Program-made: the position numbers and the translations under genes
Shown: positions 3,023-14,961 of the stretch, in pieces
How positions within the stretch are numbered: the stretch's first letter is position 1
Layout: every line of letters starts with the position of its first letter
Notes under the pieces: generated by a model
What the model saw: only the letters and a program-made list of their open reading frames with translations
The model's database searches: none
Told to the model about the DNA's origin: nothing
NCBI GenBank assembly: GCA_029558715.1
Contig: JAKQEA010000187.1
Span: forward strand, 1 to 46,987
DNA length: 46,987 nucleotides
Source of the DNA: Bacteroidota bacterium
Lineage (GTDB): Bacteria; Bacteroidota; Bacteroidia; Chitinophagales; Chitinophagaceae
Direction of reading: 5' to 3'

Positions 3023-3721
3023 TTAAATTCCACCAAATACTTTACGCAGTATCTCTGTGGTTCTTGCTACGGGATTTTCCCGGATATTAGCTTCTTCCTT
3101 GGCAATCTGATCAAAAAGAGCATCCGTCGCTTTCTCCACCACAAAACCAGGCAGATCCGGGTTTATCTTTTTTATTGTTGTCGGAAAGTTATTATAAGTA
3201 GTAACGATATCTCCGTAATACTTTGTAGCATTTACTTTATCCAGGGAAGATTTTACAGAGGGCAGAAAAGCAGCCAGCAATGCATTTCTTGTTTTATCCT
3301 TAAAATAATTAGTCGCTGCGTCTTTAGGCCCCCTCACAATATTAATTGCATCCATTAAAGTCATATCCTTAATGGCATCCACAAAAATGGGTTTTGCATA
3401 ACCTACTGCATCCTCTGCAGCCCGGTTAATAGAAAGAATGGCTTTATCCACCATCTTGCCCATACCCAGGTCTCTTAATGTGTTTTCAATTTTCACCGCA
3501 TCGGGTGGCAATAATACTTTGTAAAACTGGCTTCCGAAAAATCCATCTGTTTTATTGAGATTTAATACGGCTTTTACCAGTCCCTGGCCAAGTGCTTCCT
3601 TAATACCTTGCCCTGCTTCCGCTTCTGTTACACCTCCCCCGGTGCCGGTTGGCAATTTAGAAAGCACATCACAACTGCTCAAAGCTGCGGATACGAATAA
3701 AACAAAGAGAATTTTTTTCAT
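3023..3721 (-). CDS. DUF4197 domain-containing lipoprotein (copy 2)
   Basis: A 232-residue protein closely similar to the downstream copy over its whole mature length (same EAGQGIKEAL, LNKTDGFFGS and VDAIKDMTL blocks). It has a lipoprotein signal instead: MKKILFVLFVSAALSSC, with Cys17 in the lipobox L-S-S-C, followed by a short Thr/Gly-rich linker. One copy is therefore predicted to be anchored and the other free. DUF4197 proteins have no established function; a helical, dimeric envelope protein is a reasonable guess only. The start is clear because the signal peptide begins at the ATG. The hairpin after its stop suggests the two genes may not be strictly co-transcribed. Confidence 0.85.
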   Translation of the reverse strand: MKKILFVLFVSAALSSCDVLSKLPTGTGGGVTEAEAGQGIKEALGQGLVKAVLNLNKTDGFFGSQFYKVLLPPDAVKIENTLRDLGMGKMVDKAILSINRAAEDAVGYAKPIFVDAIKDMTLMDAINIVRGPKDAATNYFKDKTRNALLAAFLPSVKSSLDKVNATKYYGDIVTTYNNFPTTIKKINPDLPGFVVEKATDALFDQIAKEEANIRENPVARTTEILRKVFGGI

Positions 3722-3753: not shown

Positions 3754-4755
3754 TTATGCTTTGAGGCTTTCTTTCCTGTTATTGATCCTGTCACGGATGA
3801 TTCTAAAAAATTTTGCTCTTTCTTTTTCGCTCACTTCACTTATCAGTGTAGATCGTCGCAACTGGTTCTGAATATGGTTATACATATTTTCATTAAAAGC
3901 CGGGTCTCTGGTGAGCATAAAATTAATCGTTGAATGCGAAACATAAGACAATTTTGTACCATCAAGTTCTACCAGCATATTATTGTCTCCCATCAGTACT
4001 TCGTTGAAATACATTTTAAATTCCCCGATGCGTTTTTGATCCGGATCACCATAATTGAATTTATATCCTAAGGATGCCTGTTTTTCCAGGTGATCCCATA
4101 ATTTTCCAATAGCATCATATAACCGATATACATCTTCATCAGATTCAAATACCTGCCCGTCACGATAAAACTCTATCTGCCGGAAGAACATATTCATGGT
4201 TTCCATATTCCAGACTTCCACACTCGGTATCTGGTTGTACAGGTCCAGTACTTTTTTTTCTAACTCAAACAATTCAATGGGATGATCTGCATACCTGAAT
4301 TTCTTTCTTTCAAACTCAGGAAAGTGAAAATAGGTTTTCAGGTAAAAGAACCATTTAAAAGCTGCCGTTTCCTGTAAATGATACTGGTGAAAGATCGGCA
4401 GGTCCTTGCACATATAATAAAAGCTCTTCTCCTTAAAACTATTGATATATGCAAGATTATGCATCATACTGGTAACAAACTCCTCAAACCGGAATGTCTT
4501 TTTATCAAGATACTGTCCCTGGAATACGATTCCCCCTGATTGTAATCCCAGTAATTGATCTACCGATACTTTATAGTGTGTACAAAGAACCTGCAGCTCA
4601 TCAAGGGAGATTGTTTTTTCTCCCCTCATACGCCGGTAAGCGCTGTCGGCGCTTATGTCTAGCAGCTTTGCAATTTCATCCGCTGCAGAAAGGTTTTCAC
4701 CAATCTTGTTTTTAATAGCCTTAAAAAGCAGTTGTTGAAGTTCCCCGGTTGTCAT
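3754..4755 (-). CDS. HTH regulator-like protein (tandem copy A)
   Basis: A 333-residue cytoplasmic protein. Residues about 20-65 contain a helix-turn-helix of the XRE/BetR-like type (DEIAKLLDISADSAYRRMRG then TISLDELQVLC), with the Bacteroidota-typical S-A-Y-R-R recognition-helix motif. The remaining 250 residues are a helical domain rich in aromatic residues and with no cysteine cluster. No known ligand-binding fold is recognised. The upstream gene is a paralogue with the same layout and stops only 2 bases before this start, so the two are probably co-transcribed and could form a heterodimer. DNA binding is inferred from the HTH; the target is unknown. Confidence 0.7.
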   Translation of the reverse strand: MTTGELQQLLFKAIKNKIGENLSAADEIAKLLDISADSAYRRMRGEKTISLDELQVLCTHYKVSVDQLLGLQSGGIVFQGQYLDKKTFRFEEFVTSMMHNLAYINSFKEKSFYYMCKDLPIFHQYHLQETAAFKWFFYLKTYFHFPEFERKKFRYADHPIELFELEKKVLDLYNQIPSVEVWNMETMNMFFRQIEFYRDGQVFESDEDVYRLYDAIGKLWDHLEKQASLGYKFNYGDPDQKRIGEFKMYFNEVLMGDNNMLVELDGTKLSYVSHSTINFMLTRDPAFNENMYNHIQNQLRRSTLISEVSEKERAKFFRIIRDRINNRKESLKA

Positions 4756-4757
4756 AC

Positions 4758-5753
4758 TTACAAGTTTCTTTTACGATCACCGATTTTAGACAATATAATG
4801 TTGAAAAAAATATTCCGTTGTTTCTCGCTGCTCTGGCTTATCTGTGTTGACCGTCGTATCAGGTTTTCAAAGTCGCTGTATAATTCTTTACAAAAACCCT
4901 CATCAGTCGTAGTGATGTAATTGAGATGACCATAATTGATAAAGGCCGCTTTTACAAAATCCGTCAGCACCATTATAGTATTGTCGCCTAATACCACCCT
5001 GTTGAAAAAGAATTTAAAATTACTTTTCCGGCTTTGGGGATCTTCGCCGGGTATAAATTTACAGCCATACTCAGCCTGTTGTTTCATGTGATAGACTGTT
5101 TCTTCCAATGCATCATAAATGGCCCTTATATCGGCTGATGACTGAAAATGACCGGAGTCTTTCGAAAATTCGATCTGTGAAATAGTACTGTTTATACTCT
5201 CTGTATTCCACATTTCAGTTGAGGGCACCCTGGAATACTTTTTCGTAAGATCGAAACTCATTTGCTCAATATCCGGAGGCAACAGGCCAAAATCAAATTG
5301 TTTATTTTCAAAATCAGGATGCTGTAAGTGAGTTTTCATCCAGAAGAAATACCGGAATGCGATCAGGGGTCTGTAATAAAAATTGTGAAAGATGGGCAGG
5401 TCTTTCGACATATAGATGATCTCCTTCTGTATAAAATTGCTGATCGAATCAAGTTTCTCGTGTAACCCTGACAGGTATTGCCGGTAATCATACTGGTGAT
5501 TTTTTATCCGGTAATCCCTGAAAAGAACCACTCCCTTTTTAGTTTCCAGCAACTGATCCAGTGAAAGGTTAAAATGCTGGCATAAAATCCTTGCTTCATC
5601 CAACACCAGCGGAGTTTCACCCCTTATACGGCGATAAGCACTATCACTGCTTACATGTAATATATCAGATATAGTATCAACAAGGGAATCATGCTGAGGC
5701 AAAATTTCCTTAATGCGCTGAAACAAAATATCCTGTGAACTGGTAGTTGGCAT
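4758..5753 (-). CDS. HTH regulator-like protein (tandem copy B)
   Basis: A 331-residue paralogue of the following gene, with the same architecture. The N-terminal HTH lies at about 20-65 (DTISDILHVSSDSAYRRIRG) and is followed by a long helical domain with shared blocks such as YMSKDLPIFHNFYYRPLIAFRYFF and SQIEFSKDSGHF. Both proteins end in a conserved block (LIRRSTQIS...EKQRNIFF). It is the first gene of a two-gene unit transcribed away from the TonB-receptor operon. The shared 278-base intergenic region makes it a candidate regulator of that operon, but this is inference from position only. Confidence 0.7.
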   Translation of the reverse strand: MPTTSSQDILFQRIKEILPQHDSLVDTISDILHVSSDSAYRRIRGETPLVLDEARILCQHFNLSLDQLLETKKGVVLFRDYRIKNHQYDYRQYLSGLHEKLDSISNFIQKEIIYMSKDLPIFHNFYYRPLIAFRYFFWMKTHLQHPDFENKQFDFGLLPPDIEQMSFDLTKKYSRVPSTEMWNTESINSTISQIEFSKDSGHFQSSADIRAIYDALEETVYHMKQQAEYGCKFIPGEDPQSRKSNFKFFFNRVVLGDNTIMVLTDFVKAAFINYGHLNYITTTDEGFCKELYSDFENLIRRSTQISQSSEKQRNIFFNIILSKIGDRKRNL

Positions 5754-5897
5754 GTGGTGGTTTATGGTTCAGTTCAACATTATTTTTTGCAAATAATGCA
5801 CCCTGTCTATGAAGTGAGTAAAAGGTACTTGATTTTATGCAAATCATCAATACCGGCTACATGGTATTTAGTAAAAACTGCAAATAAGGGAAATGTT

Positions 5898-5913
5898 AAG
5901 GCAAAATTCAGTT
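5898..5913 (+). promoter_or_regulatory. 16-base box shared with 13934-13949
   Basis: AAGGCAAAATTCAGTT occurs here and again, identically, at 13934-13949. Both copies lie upstream of a gene that carries the conserved leader motif. The distance to the motif differs (about 40 and 260 bases), so it may be a separate operator or upstream promoter element. The role is unknown. Confidence 0.4.
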
Positions 5914-5951
5914 ACTGCCCGGCGCATTATCATTCTACTTTGGTACTAAAC

Positions 5952-6012
5952 AGGAGTAACCGGAAAATCCTTAACAGAGTACGGCGCCTTTCCGAAAAGC
6001 GACAGGAGTAGG
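5952..6012 (+). promoter_or_regulatory. Conserved structured leader motif, copy 1
   Basis: Four blocks lie in fixed order: CCGGAAAATCC (5960-5970), AGAGTACGGCGCC (5976-5988), CCGAAAAGCGA (5992-6002) and GAGTAGG (6006-6012). The second copy, at 14207-14274, has the same blocks. AGGA (5952-5955) can pair with TCCT (5968-5971). In the other copy the same positions are GGGA and TCCC, a compensatory change. The motif ends 19 bases before the TonB-receptor ATG, as expected for a cis-acting RNA or an operator. I could not match it to a riboswitch family that I know. Confidence 0.6.
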
Positions 6013-6031
6013 AAAATTAAAAACCTTTGTT

Positions 6032-8749
6032 ATGAGAAAGTACTATGTAACACTGATCCTTATAAGCAGTTTTGCATGCTTACCTGCTTTTTCACAAAAA
6101 AAACCGGTAACTGTTAACGGAAAGATAAAAGACATAGCAGCGGGGGAAGGAATAACAAGTGTTTCTATCCGGGTGAAGGAAACCGGTCATATTACCATTT
6201 CAGATTCAACAGGTAAGTTCCGGCTTATACTTGCAGACCTGCCAGTAACACTATTAATAAGCCATGCCGGGTATGAGAAAAAGGAAATAATGGTAAATAA
6301 CCCTGATGAAATATCTGTCCATCTGGTACCGTTCGCCATTCTTTTGAACGGAGTGGTCCTGGAATCAAAGGGTATCACTACTAAAATACTTGATGCCGCA
6401 TTTTCTGCTGAACTTATCAGTCAAAAGCAGATTACTCAGTTACCAACTACCAGTGTATATGACGCAACTGTCTATACAAAAGGCGTCGATCTTACAACTT
6501 CAAGCCTTACATTCAAAACCCCCAGTACAAGAGGTTTTAATGGAAGCGGCAGCACCCGGGTCAACCAGATCATTGATGGAATGGATAACCAGGCCCCCGG
6601 GTTAAATTTCTTTGTCGGGAATTTCACAGGGCCCACTGACCTTGATATAGAGAGCATAGAATTGCTGCCCGGTGCTTCTTCTGCCCTGTATGGCCCGGGT
6701 GGAATGAATGGCACTATTCTTATTAACAGCAAAAGCCCATTCAAATACCCGGGATTGAGTATGCAGGTAAAACAGGGTGTTATGCATATTGATAAGCGGC
6801 AGCGGGACAATGCATCTTCCTATTACGACTACTCTTTTCGGTGGGCCAGGTCTTTTAAGAACAAATTTGCTTTCAAATTTGGCGCACAATTCTTAAAAGC
6901 AACAGACTGGCTGGCCAATGACAGCAGTAATTACCTGAGAAGCGGCACTTCTGGAAAATTGATACCGGGCACCCGCATGACAGATCCTAACTATGACGGA
7001 GTAAACGTATACGGAGATGAAACATCTGTCGATCTTCGCCAGTTTATAATCGGCATAGCAGAAAATTACCCTCCGGGCCACCCATGGCGAGATGCCTTTA
7101 TGCAGTTGTACAATTCCATGCAAAACCCAACGCCTGTTTCCAGAACCGGTTATGCAGAAAAAGACCTGATTGATCCGCAAACAATGAATGTAAAACTATC
7201 CGGGGCCCTTCATTATAAATTATCGAAGAATATTGAGGCAATTTTAATGGCGAACTGGTCAACAGGTAACACTGTTTATACAGATGATAACCGGTATTCA
7301 TTAAAGGGAATAAAGATTGGCCAATACAAACTTGAGTTAAAACATAAAGACTGGTTTTTCAGAACGTATACCACACAGGAAGATGCCGGGGAGGCCTACA
7401 GCGCAACCGTGGCCACACAAATTTTTAACGAAGCATGGAAAAGAAGTTATGACTCAGCCAACCCAACAGGTAGTTGGTATCCTCAGTATGCAGGAGCTTA
7501 TGCACAGGCAAAATTTGGTGGTGCCAGTGATATCATAGCACATAATATGGCAAGGGCATTTGCTGACCAGGGTCGTCCCGAAGCCGGTTCCGTACAGTTC
7601 AGGCAAATTTTTGACCAGGTAAGAAAGACCCCTATTCCAAATGGTGGATTATTTAAAGAAAAATCGCAATTATGGATGTCAGAAGGTCAATACCGTTTTG
7701 GAGATGCAATAAAATCAGCTGAGGTAATCGTTGGCGGAAATTTTAAACGATATATTCTTAATTCATCCGGTACATTATTCATTGATACTTTAAAAGCTAT
7801 TGCCATCAACGAAACAGGAGGATATGTACAGGTAACAAGAAAATTATTGAATGATATATTAACGCTTACCGCTTCGGGACGGTTTGATAAGAATGAAAAT
7901 TTCAAAGGGCAATTTACTCCCCGTGCCGCTGCTCTTGTACGACTGGCAAAAGATAATAACCTGAGACTATCTTATCAAACAGCTTATCGGTTTCCCGGTA
8001 ATCTTTCGCAGTGGATCCGGCTGAATGTGGGCGGCGACTACCTGTTGCTTGGCGGTCTTTCATGGGTAATGGATTATATGAAGGCTGATAAAGACCCTGT
8101 TTTCCAGTTAACAGAGGCCGGGCCATCAACTATTCCTTATGTATATAAAGACCTCAAACCTGAAACGATGCGTTCATTTGAACTGGGCTATAAAGGTCTT
8201 ATCAAAAATAAATTATTGATAGATGCTTACCTGTACCTGGGTAAATATGAAGATTTTGTTGGCAGAATTGGTCTTTACCAGCCAGCAACAGATGAAGCTT
8301 ACTCAATTGTCGTAAACAGTTCGAATAAAGTAAAAACTCATGGATTTGGATTGGGTATGGATTACAGGATGAAAAATAATTTTTCAACGTTCTTTAATCT
8401 TTACTCAGATATGATAACAGATGTTCCTGCAGGTTTTAAATCGTATTTCAATACACCCAAATACAGGCTGAATGCAGGTTTTGCTAACTCAGGATTAGGG
8501 AAAAACGAAAGACTGGCTTTTAATGTAATGATGCGCTGGCAGGATACGTTTGAATGGGAAGGTGAATTGGCAAATGGAACACTGCCCTCTTTTGCCACTG
8601 CGGATGCCCAGGTAAGCTATAAACTGCCCCGCATCAAATCGGTCATTCGCATAGCTGGTACAAACATTTTTAACCGGTACTACAAGAATGCGTATGGTAA
8701 TCCTGCCATCGGGGGAATTTATTATACCAGTTTTATTTATGGGCTTTAA
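6032..8749 (+). CDS. TonB-dependent receptor with CarboxypepD_reg-like N-terminal domain
   Basis: A 905-residue outer-membrane receptor. The signal peptide (about 1-21) ends ACLPAFSQ. Residues about 27-105 form the carboxypeptidase-regulatory-like domain of Bacteroidota receptors (VNGKIKDIAAGEGITSVSI). The plug follows at about 115-235 (TRGFNGSGSTRVNQIIDGMD, then IESIELLPGASSALYGPGGM). The rest is a 22-stranded-type beta barrel that closes at the C terminus with an aromatic-rich last strand. No SusD partner follows, so it is probably a siderophore, cofactor or lipid-type importer rather than a SusC glycan transporter. It is preceded by the conserved leader and heads a closely packed five-gene unit. 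The substrate cannot be deduced. Confidence 0.9.
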   Translation: MRKYYVTLILISSFACLPAFSQKKPVTVNGKIKDIAAGEGITSVSIRVKETGHITISDSTGKFRLILADLPVTLLISHAGYEKKEIMVNNPDEISVHLVPFAILLNGVVLESKGITTKILDAAFSAELISQKQITQLPTTSVYDATVYTKGVDLTTSSLTFKTPSTRGFNGSGSTRVNQIIDGMDNQAPGLNFFVGNFTGPTDLDIESIELLPGASSALYGPGGMNGTILINSKSPFKYPGLSMQVKQGVMHIDKRQRDNASSYYDYSFRWARSFKNKFAFKFGAQFLKATDWLANDSSNYLRSGTSGKLIPGTRMTDPNYDGVNVYGDETSVDLRQFIIGIAENYPPGHPWRDAFMQLYNSMQNPTPVSRTGYAEKDLIDPQTMNVKLSGALHYKLSKNIEAILMANWSTGNTVYTDDNRYSLKGIKIGQYKLELKHKDWFFRTYTTQEDAGEAYSATVATQIFNEAWKRSYDSANPTGSWYPQYAGAYAQAKFGGASDIIAHNMARAFADQGRPEAGSVQFRQIFDQVRKTPIPNGGLFKEKSQLWMSEGQYRFGDAIKSAEVIVGGNFKRYILNSSGTLFIDTLKAIAINETGGYVQVTRKLLNDILTLTASGRFDKNENFKGQFTPRAAALVRLAKDNNLRLSYQTAYRFPGNLSQWIRLNVGGDYLLLGGLSWVMDYMKADKDPVFQLTEAGPSTIPYVYKDLKPETMRSFELGYKGLIKNKLLIDAYLYLGKYEDFVGRIGLYQPATDEAYSIVVNSSNKVKTHGFGLGMDYRMKNNFSTFFNLYSDMITDVPAGFKSYFNTPKYRLNAGFANSGLGKNERLAFNVMMRWQDTFEWEGELANGTLPSFATADAQVSYKLPRIKSVIRIAGTNIFNRYYKNAYGNPAIGGIYYTSFIYGL

Positions 8750-8779
8750 TCTATTCCATTAACCATTAAACCTTATTTT

Positions 8780-9463
8780 ATGATCCCCGCAATTATCTAT
8801 TTACTGTTAAGAAAATACAGGATTTCTCATCCGGACAAAGCACAAAAAATCTTTAGCGGAGTAAAGAAATTCAGCCAGGTCATCCTGCTAATCGTACTAT
8901 TTCTTGCTGTTCCGCAAATTGCCGGTTCACAGAACCACACATTGGAATATGTTATTAAACGAAAAGGCTGCAATGTGGGTTCCCTGTATTTTACCCAACA
9001 AATTGCCGGGAGTAAGCTACTACTGAAACTGGAGTCAGAAGTTAAAACCCGGATGATCTTTTTATTTACTGCCAGGGCGAAGGAAGAGAGTATTTATGAA
9101 AACGGCATCATGACCTGGTCAAGCATTTACAGGAAATTGAATGGGAATGAAAAAGTCAACAAGAAGACAAGCCTGTCTGGCAAAAATTATATTATCAGCC
9201 ACGGCTCAAGGTCCGAGTCCCTGAACAATTATCCTATTCAATATAATATGATTTGTCTGTATACCAAAGAACCGGTAGGTATCAAAACTGTGTATTCCGA
9301 CAATTTTGAACGATTTATCAATATAGAGATCATGGCCGCACACCACTATAAAATCAGGTTTCCGGATGGCAATTACAATGAATATTTCTATGTCAATGGC
9401 ATTTGTACAAAGATAAAAGTGAATCATTCCTTGTATAGTGCCATCATTGAACTCAAATCATAA
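8780..9463 (+). CDS. Exported protein, possibly DUF6134-like
   Basis: A 227-residue protein with an N-terminal hydrophobic segment at about 33-50 (VILLIVLFLAVPQIAGS), preceded by a long basic stretch. It is either an unusually long signal peptide or an anchor. The mature part is beta-rich and starts HTLEYVIKRKGCNVGSLYF, a pattern like the DUF6134-type exported proteins (a backbone-conserved K-G-x-x-V-G turn followed by alternating strands). I am not certain of the family name. It lies 30 bases after the TonB receptor and ends 4 bases before the likely start of the membrane protein, so it belongs to the same operon. A periplasmic binding or lipocalin-like accessory role is possible but not shown. 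Confidence 0.5.
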   Translation: MIPAIIYLLLRKYRISHPDKAQKIFSGVKKFSQVILLIVLFLAVPQIAGSQNHTLEYVIKRKGCNVGSLYFTQQIAGSKLLLKLESEVKTRMIFLFTARAKEESIYENGIMTWSSIYRKLNGNEKVNKKTSLSGKNYIISHGSRSESLNNYPIQYNMICLYTKEPVGIKTVYSDNFERFINIEIMAAHHYKIRFPDGNYNEYFYVNGICTKIKVNHSLYSAIIELKS

Positions 9464-9467
9464 TGCA

Positions 9468-10154
9468 ATGCCCGCCTTAAGCATCATATTAATGATATTT
9501 CTGTGCTTTCCCTTTCTGATAACCACTGACGCATGGGCTAAATCCCAAAGAAGCCGCAGTTTGGCTGATATACTGGCAGGAAGAGGAAAGATAAGTGCAT
9601 TAAACAGCAAATATTTAACCTGTAGCATTGCTTTTATGTGTGGATGCCTGTTTTACACACTAATGCCTGGCAATGACACACTGATCTTTGAGCCAGTGTG
9701 GAATAATCCATATTCATATCTCAGTATTGCTTTCACAGTTGCAGCATTGGTAGTTGGTTACACGGCAGCCGTAAATATTGCAAAAAAACAGGTCTTTTTT
9801 TTATCCGGCTATGTAGTGAGAGTACTGCCGGTTTTCATTTATTTGTTGCTACGAATAGTATTTCTATTTCTATATGAGTGTTTCTTTCGGGGTATATTAT
9901 TATTCACTTTCGTGGACACATTAGGTGTTTCCTTTACCATTTCTCTTAATATAGCACTCTACACACTTGCCCATGCTTATAGCAGCAAGGAAGAGTTCTT
10001 CGGGGCTATTCCGTTTGGTTTATTGCTTTGCGCAATCACCTTACTGCACCATTCTGTTTGGCCCGCTATCATCATTCACCTGGCATTGGCTATGAGTTAT
10101 GAAATAAAACTGGTTGTAATTAGTAATTCAACAATTAAATCAAAGAGACTATGA
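9468..10154 (+). CDS. CPBP-type membrane protein (Rce1/Abi family), altered active-site motif
   Basis: About 228 residues with six or seven hydrophobic segments. The C-terminal half shows the three CPBP intramembrane-protease motifs in order: YECFFRG, LYTLAHAYSS and IIIHLALAM. In typical members the first motif is E-E-x-x-x-R-G. Here the first of the two glutamates is Tyr, which should weaken or abolish glutamate-type proteolysis, while the two later His residues remain. A GTG start at 9438 would overlap the previous gene. ATG 9468 lies 4 bases after that gene's stop and starts directly with the first membrane segment, so I prefer it. The stop overlaps the next start (ATGA), indicating translational coupling. 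Confidence 0.65.
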   Translation: MPALSIILMIFLCFPFLITTDAWAKSQRSRSLADILAGRGKISALNSKYLTCSIAFMCGCLFYTLMPGNDTLIFEPVWNNPYSYLSIAFTVAALVVGYTAAVNIAKKQVFFLSGYVVRVLPVFIYLLLRIVFLFLYECFFRGILLFTFVDTLGVSFTISLNIALYTLAHAYSSKEEFFGAIPFGLLLCAITLLHHSVWPAIIIHLALAMSYEIKLVVISNSTIKSKRL

Positions 10155-11143
10155 AAATCATGATAACAGGTGCCACCGGGTATATCGGGCATAAACTGGC
10201 CCTGGCAGCCGCCAAGAGAAACTATATTGTTCATGTTTTAGTAAGAGATATTCAATCAAAGTTTCTTCCTGTACACCCCAATATTGTCCCTTTCAAAGGG
10301 GATATTACAGAAAAAGAAACTGTTGAAGAAGCTATGGCAGGATGTGAAAAAGTGATTCATGCAGCGGCTATTGCAAAATTTACCGACAAGGACAATTCTG
10401 TTTTTTACCAGGTTAATGTAGGGGGTACAAAAAATGTACTGGATACAGCATTGAAATTTGGTATAAAGAAATTAGTATTTACCAGTACAGGAGCTGTATT
10501 AGGGCCTTCGGGAAAAAATCCTGTTTGCGAGAATGACCCCCGGACAATAGCTTTTGAAAATGACTATGAAATATCAAAACACTGGGCTGAGCAAATAGTG
10601 AAAGAATATGCCCGAAAAGGTTTATTTGCCATTATTGTGGCAGCACCCAGAGTATATGGACCCGGTTTGTCAGTGAATGGTAATGTCTTCGGTCGCCTGA
10701 TCGGTAATGTTCTGTCATCGGGCCTTGCGTTTATGCCTGCTGACAAAGAAGTAGTTGCGAACTATGCATTTATTGATGATGTGGTAGAGGGTCATTTCCT
10801 GGCCATGGAGAAAGGATTGGGTGGTGAAAAATATATACTCGGGGGTGAAAATATTTCGTATAGCATTTTTTTTAACAGTATCAGGAAGAATGCCGGGAAA
10901 AAAATTCAGATCATTACAATACCGGCTTTCCTGCTAAAAGTATTCAGCTTATTCTATATGATGATAACAAAGCTGAGAGGAAAAGAAACTAATATTTCTC
11001 CAAAGGTTATTCAACGAATCCTGCAAAACCGGGCATTAAGCTGTGACAAAGCCATTAAGCAATTAGGATATACTATCACTCCTTTTTCCGAAGGTATCAG
11101 GCAAACCATTCTCCATCTCAAAAATAAAAGTTATGGCTTGTAA
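10151..11143 (+). CDS. NAD-dependent epimerase/dehydratase family protein
   Basis: A 330-residue extended short-chain dehydrogenase. The Rossmann motif GATGYIG is at residues 7-13, VIHAAA follows at about 68-73, and the catalytic Tyr139-x3-Lys143 lies in the DYEISKHW segment. The C-terminal third contains a hydrophobic stretch (about 255-275, FLLKVFSLFYMMI) found in members that act on lipophilic substrates such as sterol-type or dihydroflavonol-like compounds, and less often in sugar-nucleotide epimerases. Its start overlaps the preceding stop by 4 bases, and its end overlaps the following SDR start by 11 bases. It may work on the compound brought in by the TonB receptor; the substrate is unknown. 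Confidence 0.75.
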   Translation: MKIMITGATGYIGHKLALAAAKRNYIVHVLVRDIQSKFLPVHPNIVPFKGDITEKETVEEAMAGCEKVIHAAAIAKFTDKDNSVFYQVNVGGTKNVLDTALKFGIKKLVFTSTGAVLGPSGKNPVCENDPRTIAFENDYEISKHWAEQIVKEYARKGLFAIIVAAPRVYGPGLSVNGNVFGRLIGNVLSSGLAFMPADKEVVANYAFIDDVVEGHFLAMEKGLGGEKYILGGENISYSIFFNSIRKNAGKKIQIITIPAFLLKVFSLFYMMITKLRGKETNISPKVIQRILQNRALSCDKAIKQLGYTITPFSEGIRQTILHLKNKSYGL

Positions 11144-11990
11144 ATATTATACGCTGATTACAGGCGCCAGTGAAGGTTTTGGCAAGGCGCTTTCGGTGGA
11201 ATGCGCAAAACGAAAAATGAACCTGATACTGGTCGCATTACCAGGCGAAGAGTTATACAACCTGGGCCGCTATATCGAAAAGGAATTTAAGGTTCATACT
11301 ATCTGTCTTCCCCATGACCTGGCTAACAAAGAAGAGTGTGATCAGCTCTACCATGAAGTAAAAAGAACAGGAGTTAAAGTAAACATGCTTTTCAATAATG
11401 CCGGTACTGGTGGTACTCATTTGTTCAAAGAGAAGGATGCTGGTTACTATCGCCGTCAGATAGAACTCAATATTATTACTCCGACTTTGCTGACACATTT
11501 ATTCATGGAAACTCTTCAGCAAAATAGCCCTTCATATATTCTAAATGTTAGCAGCCTTGCTGGTTTTATCAACCTTCCGCTAAAGCAGGTATATGGCGGC
11601 ACCAAATCGTATATCCTTTCATTCTCTAAAAGCCTTGGGCAGGAGCTAAAGGAAAAAAACATTAATGTCAGCATTGTTTGCCCCGGCGGTATGAATACAA
11701 CATTGGCATTGACATTACATAATCGAAGCCTGAATGGCATCGGACGCTGGTCTATTATGAACCCCGAAGATGTGGCAAGAATTACGATAGAAAGTCTCCT
11801 GCAGAATAAGGAAGTGATTATACCCGGCTTCTGGAACCGTATTTTTTTAGTACTTAACAGGCTATTGCCCGAAAAATTGAAAAGAATACTATTGAAGCTG
11901 CACACCAGGCGCTACCATTCTTTTGCTAAAAATAAAACCGCAACAGAAGGTAATTATGGTATTAGAAATATATATCCTGCAACGAATTAA
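11133..11990 (+). CDS. SDR family NAD(P)-dependent oxidoreductase
   Basis: A 285-residue classical short-chain dehydrogenase. It has the cofactor motif TGASEGFG (10-17), NNAG (88-91), Ser140/141, and Tyr154-x3-Lys158. After the catalytic core it has a C-terminal extension (about 225-285) with a hydrophobic, basic helix (NRIFLVLNRLLPEKLKRILL), like microsomal 17-beta-hydroxysteroid or acyl-type dehydrogenases that sit at membranes. This points to a lipophilic substrate, in line with the adjacent epimerase-like enzyme, but it is only inference. The start lies inside the preceding gene (11-base overlap). It is the last enzyme gene of the TonB-receptor unit. Confidence 0.8.
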   Translation: MACKYYTLITGASEGFGKALSVECAKRKMNLILVALPGEELYNLGRYIEKEFKVHTICLPHDLANKEECDQLYHEVKRTGVKVNMLFNNAGTGGTHLFKEKDAGYYRRQIELNIITPTLLTHLFMETLQQNSPSYILNVSSLAGFINLPLKQVYGGTKSYILSFSKSLGQELKEKNINVSIVCPGGMNTTLALTLHNRSLNGIGRWSIMNPEDVARITIESLLQNKEVIIPGFWNRIFLVLNRLLPEKLKRILLKLHTRRYHSFAKNKTATEGNYGIRNIYPATN

Positions 11991-12000
11991 ACAACAAAGT

Positions 12001-12543
12001 ATGAAAGCAATTTGCATGTCTCCTTTTTTAATAGCTGTATGCTACCTGTTAATAGCGGTAGGCTGCAAAAAAGATAACCCTCAGTCTGAACTGGTAACCG
12101 TAAACGGTCAAACCTTTGGTTGCCGGGTAAATGGCAAACCCTTTATTGCCGATAAATGGGATTTTGGGAATAATATTCCGCCTATAAGAATAAGATTTAG
12201 ATATAGCCCAGTGCTACAAACTAATACTTTGCAAGTATTGGCAGAAAAGGAAAACCAATTGATTGAACTGTGGGTTAATAGCCCAGTTACTGTTGGAATT
12301 AAAAATTTAATATCTAATACATTGAGTCATCCAACAATAGTTAACCCCTTAGATTATGGGTCATACGAAACTTTTAGCCCTTTTAGGGAATATATAACTA
12401 ATAATATAGCTGGTGGTCATATAAATATTCTAGTTGCTGATACGATTAATCAAAAAGTAGAGGGAACATTTGAATTCACCGGAACTGATAGAACTACCGG
12501 TGAAAAGGTAACTGTTACTAACGGATATTTTAAAAAATTTTAA
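12001..12543 (+). CDS. DUF6252-like lipoprotein (tandem copy 1)
   Basis: A 180-residue lipoprotein. The likely start is ATG 12001, giving the signal MKAICMSPFLIAVCYLLIAV and lipobox Cys22 (V-G-C-K-K-D). Upstream in-frame starts would overlap the SDR gene and leave no clean signal peptide. The mature protein begins with ELVTVNGQTFGCRVNGKPF and ends with EGTFEFTGTDRTTGEKVTVT, the strand pattern of small Bacteroidota lipoproteins that I associate with DUF6252; the family label is tentative. The downstream neighbour is a paralogue. A 56-base block just after the lipobox is nearly identical between the two, while the rest is clearly diverged. It starts 10 bases after the SDR gene and may be read with it. 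Confidence 0.6.
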   Translation: MKAICMSPFLIAVCYLLIAVGCKKDNPQSELVTVNGQTFGCRVNGKPFIADKWDFGNNIPPIRIRFRYSPVLQTNTLQVLAEKENQLIELWVNSPVTVGIKNLISNTLSHPTIVNPLDYGSYETFSPFREYITNNIAGGHINILVADTINQKVEGTFEFTGTDRTTGEKVTVTNGYFKKF

Positions 12544-12563
12544 CGCCATTTAAAATATGTAAT

Positions 12564-13106
12564 ATGAAAAAGATGCCAGTTGTACAGTTTTGTATTATCA
12601 CAGTGGTAAGTTTATCATCTTTTTCCTGTAAAAAAGATAACCCTCAGTCTGAACTGGTAACCGTAAACGGCCAAACCTTTGGTTGTAGGTTAGACGGTAT
12701 TCCTTTTATTTCTGATTTGTGGGATTATGGAAACAATATTCCTCCTGTAAGAGTGGATTTTTGGTATAGCCCGGTTTTAAGAACCATGGAAGTTCAAATA
12801 ATTGGGAAAAAAGGAAATCAATATATTGAAGTTTGGCTTGCAAGTCCCGTAATAGCTGGAAGAACTCTCTTAAGGGCAACGACTTTACCTTCTCCGACTA
12901 TAGCACATCCTCCTAATTATGGGCTTTATCAAATAATATCGCCTAATCAAACATTTATTACTAACTCAAACATCGGAGGTTTTGTAGACATCCTGAGTGT
13001 GGACACCGTGACACAAAAAATTGAAGGAAGATTTGAGTTTATCGGAACTGATCAGATAACAGGAAAAATCGCAACTATAACAAACGGATATTTTAAAAAA
13101 ATTTAA
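12564..13106 (+). CDS. DUF6252-like lipoprotein (tandem copy 2)
   Basis: A 180-residue paralogue of the preceding gene, 20 bases downstream. The signal MKKMPVVQFCIITVVSLSSFS leads to lipobox Cys22 (S-F-S-C-K-K-D), and the same SELVTVNGQTFGC block follows. The C terminus repeats the EGRFEFIGTDQITGK...ITNGYFKK ending. Overall it looks like a small beta-sandwich anchored in the outer membrane or facing the surface. The function is unknown. The very high DNA identity of the block after the signal (12630-12685 against 12067-12122) stands out against the divergence elsewhere. Confidence 0.6.
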   Translation: MKKMPVVQFCIITVVSLSSFSCKKDNPQSELVTVNGQTFGCRLDGIPFISDLWDYGNNIPPVRVDFWYSPVLRTMEVQIIGKKGNQYIEVWLASPVIAGRTLLRATTLPSPTIAHPPNYGLYQIISPNQTFITNSNIGGFVDILSVDTVTQKIEGRFEFIGTDQITGKIATITNGYFKKI

Positions 13107-13174
13107 TGCTGATTAACCAATTTGCCGATGGCATTGAAATATTCCCTCTTTATATAAAACACTAAAAAAACATC

Positions 13175-13924
13175 ATGAGAAAAATCTCCACCTGGGCAAA
13201 AGCCCACAAATGGCCCGCAAGAATTATCCTTGTCCTTAGTTTATTGCTCCTGAATATAACAGGGATTCTAACCGGCTATTTGCTTAAAGACTTGTCAGTT
13301 ATTATTCCCGGTTCCGTCCTCTTATTAACTATTCTTATCTATGTATGGGCCATGTTATCTTACCCGGCCAGGTCCACCAGGTCCGGGTATGCTCCCGGCC
13401 GGTATTATACAAAGCAAAAAACAAGGGATTTTATTCTGGCGGGAACAGCTTTTATACTATTTGCATGTATCAGTAATAACAATAAGCTTGTTTCTGCTTC
13501 TTTCCTGTCATTGCAAGCGGCAACAAATGCACATCCACCCGACAGCCAGGGCAGGGCTTATAAACCTGTCTGGAAATTCTCCGCTTCAATGAAAGATGAA
13601 AATGGTAAAATGCTGAAATGGAAAGAAAGAAAAAAATTACTCAAAGAGCAGATCAGGGGGATCAAAAAATCCAATGAGCTGAGTAAGGGAGAAAAAGTTG
13701 CCCTTACCATACTGGCTGTACTGGCAGCTCTTGGTCTTTTATTCCTCGTAGCATCACTGGCCTGCAATCTGTCCTGCAGCGGATCAGATGCGGGGGCCGT
13801 TATTGTTGGCCTGGGTGGAGGAGCACTGGTTATTGTATTGCTGGTAGTTGTCATAAGAGCCATTTACAATAAGAAAAGAAAGGAGCTCCGAAAGCAGGAA
13901 AAGGAGGCAGCCACTGGAGGCTAG
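13175..13924 (+). CDS. Unrecognised membrane protein
   Basis: A 249-residue protein of no family that I recognise. Two hydrophobic segments lie at about 17-38 and 42-65, a third at about 88-105 (DFILAGTAFILFACIS), and two more near the C terminus (about 178-200 and 208-232). Between the third and fourth is a charged, Lys-rich loop of about 70 residues (KWKERKKLLKEQIRGIKKSNELSKGEK). The C-terminal tail is strongly basic (KKRKELRKQEK), so it probably faces the cytoplasm. It follows the lipoprotein pair by 68 bases. No conserved catalytic motif is visible. Confidence 0.55.
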   Translation: MRKISTWAKAHKWPARIILVLSLLLLNITGILTGYLLKDLSVIIPGSVLLLTILIYVWAMLSYPARSTRSGYAPGRYYTKQKTRDFILAGTAFILFACISNNNKLVSASFLSLQAATNAHPPDSQGRAYKPVWKFSASMKDENGKMLKWKERKKLLKEQIRGIKKSNELSKGEKVALTILAVLAALGLLFLVASLACNLSCSGSDAGAVIVGLGGGALVIVLLVVVIRAIYNKKRKELRKQEKEAATGG

Positions 13925-13933
13925 ACAGGTTTC

Positions 13934-13949
13934 AAGGCAAAATTCAGTT
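13934..13949 (+). promoter_or_regulatory. 16-base box shared with 5898-5913
   Basis: Identical copy of AAGGCAAAATTCAGTT, starting 10 bases after the stop of the membrane-protein gene. Both copies precede genes with the conserved leader motif. The role is unknown. Confidence 0.4.
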
Positions 13950-13996
13950 TACCTTACCCGGAGGATTTAAAAAAAACGATCCTCTACATCCGGAAT

Positions 13997-14080
13997 CCCC
14001 AAAATTCATTGATAAAATGGGTTTTGGGGGTCTGTTTTATATGCCAAAATTGCTGATTTTCACCTGTTTTAGCCCCAAAA
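13997..14080 (+). repeat. CCCCAAAA-TTTTGGGG-CCCCAAAA alternative hairpins
   Basis: CCCCAAAA occurs at 13997-14004 and 14073-14080, and its reverse complement TTTTGGGG lies between them at 14022-14029. The middle arm can pair with either outer arm but not both. The first pairing, followed by TCTGTTTTAT, could end transcription of the upstream gene. Confidence 0.4.
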
Positions 14081-14131
14081 TAATCCTGCATGAACTTTTA
14101 AGGTAATAGCGGAAGATTTGAGAAACTAAAA

Positions 14132-14139
14132 TATCTTTG
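14132..14139 (+). promoter_or_regulatory. -7 promoter box (TATCTTTG)
   Basis: A perfect match to the Bacteroidota -7 consensus TAnnTTTG. The -33 TTG is not at the usual distance: the nearest one (14118-14120) is only 11 bases away, so the promoter may need an activator. Transcription from here would give a leader of about 150 bases carrying the conserved motif at 14207-14274. Confidence 0.4.
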
Positions 14140-14206
14140 CGCCGAAACAATCAAACCGGTAAATTCATATCTTAGAATTGATTTACTGATTGTTAAAGGA
14201 TAAGAT

Positions 14207-14274
14207 GGGAGAAATCCGGAAAATCCCCAGGAGAAAAGAGTACGGCGCCGATACCGAAAAGCGATAAGAGTAGG
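14207..14274 (+). promoter_or_regulatory. Conserved structured leader motif, copy 2
   Basis: Same four blocks as at 5952-6012: CCGGAAAATCC (14216-14226), AGAGTACGGCGCC (14237-14249), CCGAAAAGCGA (14254-14264) and GAGTAGG (14268-14274). Inter-block spacings are 10, 4 and 3, against 5, 3 and 3 in copy 1. GGGA (14207-14210) pairs with TCCC (14224-14227), replacing AGGA/TCCT of the other copy. The motif ends 18 bases before the ATG of the beta-barrel gene. Confidence 0.6.
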
Positions 14275-14292
14275 TGAACCAAAAAAACTGTT

Positions 14293-14961
14293 ATGAAAAA
14301 AGTGCTATTCATTTTGGCTGTTTCTGTTCTTTGCCTGCAAATAGATGGCTTTTCCCAAAAAACAAGAGTAGGTGTTGCCGCCGGAATTACATCCGCTAAT
14401 ATGTATGGAGAAATTGGTGGCGAAAAAATACAAGATGACAGCAAAACTGGAATCACTTTTGGGATGATACTTGATGCCCCACTCGGTAAAAGTAAAATTA
14501 GCTTCCAGCCAGGCTTACATTATGTACAAAAAGGAAGATCACTGGTAAAAACCAATTCTCAAAAAGATTGGATTGCTCTCCGTTATGCTGAACTGCAGGC
14601 AAATTTCCTGTTTAATACCGGCGGCGAAAAAGGAAATTTCTTTATCGGCGGAGGACCTGCTGTTGCACTTGATTTCCCATCAGCCAGGATTTCAAAAACC
14701 TTAGTAAGAGATCCTGATGAACCAGACTACTGGTTAAGGGCGGAAACAAATATCAACTTTGGCAAGGAGTCAAACTCTGATTTCAAAGGATTGGACTATG
14801 GCGCTAACCTCGTAACCGGTTACCGCCTGAAGAATGGCTTCTCTCTTGCTGTTAACTATACTATCGGTATTAGAAACCTTGTTCCGGTTGAGAATGGCAG
14901 TGATGAAATCAGGAATCATTGTTTTGGTATCCGTTTGGGCTACCTGGTCAATAACAAGTAG
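14293..14961 (+). CDS. Outer membrane beta-barrel (porin-family) protein
   Basis: A 222-residue exported protein. The signal peptide (1-22) ends QIDGFSQ, and residues 23 onward form short amphipathic strands with the pattern of the PorT-like beta-barrel family of Bacteroidota (RVGVAAGITSANMYGE, SFQPGLHYVQKG, FGIRLGYLVNNK). The barrel is probably of 8-10 strands. It carries the same leader motif as the TonB-receptor operon, so the two may belong to one regulon. A clear terminator follows at 14981-15011 before lysS. The exact role (adhesion, pore or envelope assembly) cannot be read from the sequence. Confidence 0.75.
   Translation: MKKVLFILAVSVLCLQIDGFSQKTRVGVAAGITSANMYGEIGGEKIQDDSKTGITFGMILDAPLGKSKISFQPGLHYVQKGRSLVKTNSQKDWIALRYAELQANFLFNTGGEKGNFFIGGGPAVALDFPSARISKTLVRDPDEPDYWLRAETNINFGKESNSDFKGLDYGANLVTGYRLKNGFSLAVNYTIGIRNLVPVENGSDEIRNHCFGIRLGYLVNNK

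Follow-up and report, generated by a model that had tools for sequence, protein, structure and literature searches.

Tandem pseudoknot leaders related to Rfam clan CL00115 precede two outer-membrane protein genes of a Bacteroidota genome and are candidate elements of translational control

Among catalogued bacterial leader RNAs, the closest to the element described here are the families DUF805 (RF03081) and DUF805b (RF02914) of Rfam clan CL00115, which is already known as a cis-regulatory entry, together with its P1 hairpin; both motifs reportedly stem from a 2017 paper. No function for the clan was found in the literature searched, and neither was a crossing helix (P2), a tandem form or an intercistronic use in phages, the original motif paper lying outside that search. 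We analysed a 46,987-nucleotide (nt) stretch of the Chitinophagaceae contig JAKQEA010000187.1 (assembly GCA_029558715.1), hereafter the window, in which two copies of a related element stand ahead of two genes for outer-membrane proteins, the leaders, their parts and the genes behind them all being on the forward strand. Each copy is probably, though by no means certainly, a cis-acting RNA in which two compact pseudoknots, placed 18–19 nt before the start codon, control the initiation of translation. At curated gathering scores no Rfam family matched in the window; the sequence-only reading of this DNA had seen no match to the cobalamin, TPP, SAM, c-di-GMP, ZTP, glutamine or THF consensus. A permissive comparison of the 211 bases surrounding each copy with 4227 families, to which the following E-values refer, nevertheless aligned copy 1 end to end with RF03081 over 5948–6018 (33.5 bits, E 9.6e-5, cut-off 51.1) and the second module of copy 2 with RF02914 (25.4 bits, E 2.2e-5, cut-off 35.6); copy 2 against RF03081 (22.9 bits) and positions 5952–5981 of copy 1 against RF02914 (19.9 bits) also stayed under the respective cut-offs. 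With significant E-values and scores below both thresholds, the two copies are divergent relatives of the clan in sequence and structure: neither copy qualifies for RF03081 or RF02914 proper, both resemble CL00115 in the wide sense, and the element is thus known to Rfam after all.

The sequence-only reading had described two motif copies with conserved blocks in the same order, variable spacers and one compensatory change, and inspection of the sequence located both, base for base, exactly as described. Copy 1 reads CCGGAAAATCC, 5 nt, AGAGTACGGCGCC, 3 nt, CCGAAAAGCGA, 3 nt and GAGTAGG; copy 2 has the identical four blocks (CCGGAAAATCC, AGAGTACGGCGCC, CCGAAAAGCGA and GAGTAGG) with spacers of 10, 4 and 3 nt. 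The 13-mer AGAGTACGGCGCC occurs without mismatch at these two places only in the 4.02 megabase (Mb) genome. Comparison indicates that each copy is made of two abutting H-type pseudoknots, each with a helix P1, a crossing helix P2 and the constant loops GAAAA and GAGUA flanking P2. In copy 1, the first module occupies 5952–5984, with P1a formed by AGGA (5952–5955) and TCCT (5968–5971), P2a by CCG (5960–5962) and CGG (5982–5984), and the loops GAAAA at 5963–5967 and GAGTA at 5977–5981; the second, at 5985–6013 and within the stretch aligned to RF03081, has P1b of CGC (5985–5987) and GCG (5999–6001), P2b of TCC (5991–5993) and GGA (6011–6013), extendable to TTTCC/GGAAA, and its loops at 5994–5998 and 6006–6010. 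In copy 2, the first module (14207–14245) pairs GGGA (14207–14210) with TCCC (14224–14227) in P1a, which is the compensatory counterpart of AGGA/TCCT in copy 1, and CCG (14216–14218) with CGG (14243–14245) in P2a, the loops being GAAAA at 14219–14223 and GAGTA at 14238–14242; the second (14246–14275) has P1b of CGC (14246–14248) and GCG (14261–14263), P2b of ACC (14253–14255) and GGT (14273–14275), and its loops at 14256–14260 and 14268–14272. In both tandems the 3' strand of P2a (CGG) directly touches the 5' strand of P1b (CGC). The second modules of copies 1 and 2 score 26.8 bits (E 1e-4) and 42.9 bits (E 9.7e-10) against the covariance model R1, each being one of its 70 training sequences.

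The crossing helix is carried by comparison with other genomes. A scan of species genomes with the pattern CCGAAAAGC-N3-8-GAGTAGG, in which the outer two P2 bases were left free, matched at least 116 stretches, and 72 of the 80 titles listed are Bacteroidota by name. In 80 of 114 distinct matches the nucleotide preceding CC pairs with the one that follows GG, against 43.3 after shuffling (0/2000 shuffles as high), and none of 15 neighbouring offsets around this third P2 pair stands out. For the long-loop class the same pair forms in 66/72 sequences (29.1 shuffled), with UA, GC, AU and CG each common, while 70/72 form the outer pair of P1 (40.4 shuffled); the second P1 pair outward is weak (43/72 vs 37.1, equalled in 329/5000 shuffles), and neither the third P1 pair outward (27/72 vs 31.2) nor a fourth P2 pair (21/72 vs 23.8) is supported, as is the case for P1 pairs beyond the first outer one in the short-loop class. 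Eleven genome-contig loci had been dropped by hand from these covariation counts, and from the upstream-gap counts below, for their title or GC-rich coding context (L038, L074, L088, L101, L103, L104, L111, L112, L132, L133 and L143); two of them, L074 from Pseudomonas huaxiensis and L133, nevertheless resemble true members. On an alignment of 70 of 109 sequences (A2), chosen by hand and leaving out mostly short-loop and near-identical ones, the named structure has 94.8% of its cells paired and a covariation of 0.386, against 0.080 when shuffled and at most 0.079 when slid. Among relatives retrieved with R1, a model that includes P1 and leaves P2 out, P2 pairs in 48/51 (32.7 shuffled), a few training members being included and 4 of 55 distinct rows (alignment A3) unparsed, and in viral contigs found by pattern it pairs in 77/79 (40.1 shuffled), a set that contains near-identical contigs (88 of 120 viral loci were the input to one step). 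In the single module L216 the inner P2 pair shows a compensated change, with GCU/AGC where GCC/GGC would otherwise stand. Since the covariation of P2 was not imposed by the searches, it supports the crossing helix, and on this comparative evidence the stems P1 and P2 of each module are established.

Tandems of the window type recur. A pattern search of 392 loci gave fifteen, among them the two window copies, and P2a pairs at 3/3 positions in all 15 and P2b in 14, the forms of P2a comprising CCG/CGG, GCU/AGC, UCG/CGA, CCU/GGG and ACC/GGU. A second model, R2, built with P2 left out from 12 of these 15 (alignment A5), matched at E≤1e-4 in 68 of 394 genomes of the family; by our own count its list holds 49 places above 44 bits, four of them from the training set, and some lower-scoring matches are DUF805-type elements that had been seen before. 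With training genomes excluded, 39 of 46 distinct new matches could be parsed (7 could not), and in these the outer P2a pair forms in 39/39 (18.2 shuffled) and the inner in 30/39 (17.8 shuffled), neither value being reached in 5000 shuffles; the middle pair of P2b becomes A-U in L471. In four loci (L208:682-1538, L478, L108 and L135) several neighbouring genes each have their own module or tandem.

The element is tied to the start codon. GAGTAGG ends at 6012 in copy 1 and at 14274 in copy 2, and the ATGs lie at 6032 and 14293, which leaves 19 and 18 nt between them, as had been read from the sequence; an A-rich spacer (6014–6031) fills the interval up to the copy 1 start codon. Elsewhere, the end of the motif lies 17–28 nt from the first open-frame ATG in 116 of 146 places (of 152 matches), with a median of 22 nt, a count that keeps the 11 hand-dropped loci and is made from GAGTA for the loci found through Rfam; without those 11, the fractions are 90/109 for pattern-found and 22/27 for Rfam-found places. 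The gap to the same-strand upstream gene varies widely instead: genome contigs span 5 to 730 nt, viral contigs −10 to 880 nt. In the viral contigs, 84 of 106 places examined follow a same-strand gene, and in 47 of these 84 the upstream open reading frame (ORF) ends within 45 nt of P1, compared with 11 of 58 same-strand cases in genome contigs. At 41 viral places the preceding ORF, some 80 codons long or longer, terminates no more than about 14 nt from P1, its stop codon often touching or lying inside P1, with 3 of the 41 (L282, L293, L385) resembling chance matches in coding sequence. Five of the close upstream phage proteins were searched, giving two exonucleases VIII, a portal protein, one family of unknown function and one without a match, and the phage genes behind the module include a DNA methyltransferase, a ParB-like protein and small unknown proteins. 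In phages the module thus often looks like the filling of the gap between two co-directional genes of an apparent single operon. The leader at L074:5995-6015 in Pseudomonas huaxiensis is of the DUF805 type, and the gene behind it resembles, by eye, those of the viral loci L300, L314 and L347, which possibly reflects horizontal transfer.

At E≤1e-3, R1 matched in 82 of 296 genomes of the phylum, 81 of which hold 1–9 copies and the remaining one 16 (lower bounds, 23 candidates being scored per genome), and at E≤0.05 in 29 of 38 relatives, weak matches included. The genome of the window holds four modules at E≤1e-4, namely the two window copies and two others, ahead of a Yip1-like membrane protein (named by eye) and of an exported protein, and L027 is an apparent fifth. 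The identity of the two window genes as outer-membrane proteins was borne out by Pfam: the gene behind copy 1 (6032–8749) encodes a TonB-dependent receptor with Plug, TonB_dep_Rec_b-barrel and CarbopepD_reg_2 domains, and that behind copy 2 (14293–14961) a β-barrel protein of family OMP_b-brl_2. Homologues of the leader were predicted to stand upstream of outer-membrane genes, and while homologues exist in number, the rule about their genes does not hold: among 121 downstream proteins scanned (of 130 references), the most frequent Pfam families are OMP_b-brl (7), AHSA1 (6), OMP_b-brl_2 (6; the two OMP lists may overlap) and TM2 (3), and bacteriorhodopsin-like, DUF805, aquaporin, caspase and other proteins occur as well. 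Numerous short downstream peptides with a GG motif were also noted by eye. Control specific to outer-membrane proteins was rejected on this diversity.

That the modules are probably transcribed is suggested by copy 2. Orthologues of the 14293 gene were picked by protein search and not by RNA, giving 21 with the window's own and excluding the distant paralogue L414; the second module is present in 12 of them, with P2b as ACC/GGU in some and GCC/GGC in others, degenerate in one and absent from eight. The eight come from assemblies of 1.5–1.9 Mb, some incomplete, and the module-bearing G153 is also of 1.9 Mb. All eight module-less leaders retain a TATCTTTG box 75–76 nt before the start codon, which also occurs in the module-bearing leader L394 and, in the window, at 14132–14139; it agrees with the −7 promoter consensus of Bacteroidota and is probably the promoter box of copy 2. 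Its retention in orthologues without the module places the probable transcription start at about 14144–14146, upstream of the modules. A long hairpin (AACAATCA...TGATTGTT, 14146–14193; z −2.35, 6/200 shuffles as stable) would then stand at the probable 5' end of the leader. In several of the small genomes that lack the module and keep the box (L400–L403, L405–L408), a short inverted repeat CCTAAG...CTTAGG is seen instead.

Taken together, these features lead us to read the motif as an element of translational control: it is probably transcribed, keeps its distance to the start codon without covering the initiation region, and occurs mainly in a phylum that makes limited use of Shine-Dalgarno pairing. 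The proposal of a structured cis-acting leader was thereby strengthened by many homologues, further covarying helices and the tight distance to the start codon, the architecture turning out to be two pseudoknots; of the alternative it offered, control of translation or of termination, the former is what we infer and the latter is not upheld, as no terminator-like site was found in 5800–6130 or 14050–14400, for which reason a transcription attenuator was also rejected. We also discarded an upstream reading frame with the TAG of GAGTAGG as its stop codon, because spacers of 3–8 nt would break the frame (by eye). In the bulged-G (sarcin-ricin, loop E) consensus, GAA on one strand and AGUA on the other lie directly beside a Watson-Crick helix, and GAAAA and GAGUA on the two strands beside P2 appear to fit such a fold; no description of this consensus was found in the literature searched. 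The two loops may stack on P2 as a bulged-G motif and create a rigid knob, which would sit where the mRNA leaves the 30S platform while the initiation region stays uncovered; the knob could be read in trans by a protein, by a small molecule or by the 30S platform itself, and the recruitment of 30S subunits would change as a result, more sharply or more strongly with tandem modules. We lean towards activation or gating, given that the initiation site stays open. According to passages of two papers, Bacteroidia seldom use Shine-Dalgarno pairing (PMC9976891, PMC8710568), which leaves room for other initiation signals. It is conceivable, and we propose it tentatively, that Bacteroidota dedicate the module to translation initiation, as a rigid pseudoknot docked where the mRNA leaves the 30S subunit; phages would then have adopted it as a portable intercistronic signal, with the tandem as a stronger version.

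Several observations weigh against translational control by such pseudoknots. Plain single-strand folding gives no unusual stability (z +1.05, +1.42, +1.19 and +1.67 for four cuts, and +1.40), computed with a program whose model does not contain pseudoknots. The third P2 pair is absent from the short-loop class, mostly of the DUF805 type (7/31 vs 7.4 shuffled), and the outer P2b pair of the new tandem matches is weaker than those of P2a (32/39 vs 27.8, reached in 3/5000 shuffles, with six A-C mismatches). GAAAA and GAGUA were enforced by the patterns and favoured by the models, and their constancy is partly due to construction. Few copies per genome suit a regulon better than a general translation signal, and the module is dispensable, since 8 of the 21 orthologous genes do without it. 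Among ten homologues of the copy 1 receptor, none has a module within 110 nt ahead of the start codon that the script assigned, which in L441 and L443 precedes the likely start by 14 codons, nor was one seen in a wider look, from −200 to +90, at four of the ten; the association of copy 1 with its receptor looks recent for that reason, as far as the sequences tell. Finally, the phage gene upstream may itself contain a promoter in its 3' end, and two of the 47 viral places with a close upstream ORF (L333, L392) have, by eye, a clear TATCTTTG-like box just before the module.

The small number of copies would equally be expected of a binding site for a dedicated regulatory RNA-binding protein that activates or represses translation, as would the loss of the module at the copy 2 gene in small-genome relatives if the trans factor had been lost, and bulged-G folds are often protein sites. 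We consider this possible, yet rather unlikely: the only candidate class examined, RRM_1, is not required. It is absent at E≤1e-3 from 4 of 38 relatives, and two of these bear modules, G171, whose five matches at E≤0.05 include two below 1e-9, and G170, with one at 1.6e-4, which led us to reject RRM_1 as a necessary partner; the other two, G174 (75% complete) and G182 (57% complete), have neither, and G162 and G168 have RRM_1 without a module match. A riboswitch, in which the pseudoknot, single or tandem, is an aptamer whose small-molecule ligand shifts the translation of a scattered regulon, would account for a compact fold of about 35 nt with constant loops, for its tandem copies and for downstream genes as diverse as those of signalling-nucleotide riboswitches. 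It is unlikely nonetheless, as those genes show no obvious pathway, their phage members would be unusual for a metabolite switch, no terminator-like site accompanies the copies and no alternative structure reaching the start codon was noticed, in the course of work that did not search for one systematically. An element of mRNA stability or processing, acting between genes and at 5' ends, would agree with the intercistronic position in phage contigs and the leader position in hosts, but it would not need a constant distance to the next start codon, and we judge it quite improbable. That the blocks are a DNA operator or promoter-proximal element merely resembling an RNA is highly improbable and was rejected, for though some viral modules start about 10 nt after a TATCTTTG-like box (L333 and L392, by eye), the crossing helix P2 and the helix P1 each show covariation, the spacers vary, the distance is constant towards the start codon but not towards the gene upstream, and the box taken as the probable promoter of copy 2, some 70 nt ahead of the modules, is retained in orthologues without them.

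With a pseudoknot that has a probable bulged-G core, a distance locked to the start codon and a use between phage genes, the clan gains a concrete, testable claim, that translation is controlled by RNA structure in a phylum where Shine-Dalgarno sequences are mostly disregarded. Since a module has only about 35 nt, its function can be tested by single and compensatory base changes, and should it raise expression, it would be a useful part for Bacteroidota genetics. Elsewhere in the window, two exported proteins (2209–2946 and 3023–3721) and, next to them, two putative helix-turn-helix regulators (3754–4755 and 4758–5753) are encoded as neighbouring pairs, the members of each pair being alike by eye, and two similar exported proteins stand in tandem at 11923–12543 and 12564–13106, the second matching DUF6252 below its cut-off.

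Set beside the systems already described, the window element shares with DUF805b (RF02914, type Cis-reg) P1, the CCGAAAA loop and the GAGUAGG tail ahead of a gene. The alignment of copy 2 displays these features, P1 closing a loop with CCGAAAA that is followed by the tail, with two of the four model pairs non-standard (columns marked v), P1b proper being CGC/GCG; the structure line printed by Rfam gives P1 only, without P2, and the window copies differ further in being tandem and under the cut-off. DUF805 (RF03081) also consists of two parts, is of similar length and closes with the same module, but it opens with a hairpin, GUGG-AGACCAGAAA-CCAC and then ACGG, where the window element has a second GAAAA/GAGUA pseudoknot; the window copies have AGGA/TCCT or GGGA/TCCC stems, a CCGGAAAA loop and a AGAGTACGG tail in that place, with ACGG as the only part of the hairpin feature in common, and DUF805 belongs to the short-loop class without a third P2 pair. 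At gathering scores, 20 of 20 viral single-module sources match the clan (19 DUF805b, 1 DUF805), compared with 3 of 20 tandem-bearing sources (L108, L451, L467). To the bulged-G motif the likeness is one of sequence pattern alone, with AGUA and GAA strands beside a Watson-Crick helix, and the difference is that in the window element the motif would sit inside a pseudoknot. The preQ1-I riboswitch, finally, may be compared in its way of working only, being likewise an H-type pseudoknot, some 35 nt long and close to a start codon; its loops and gene set are different and no Rfam family reaches its cut-off here, and the window element stands clear of any Shine-Dalgarno sequence, leaving the initiation site open.

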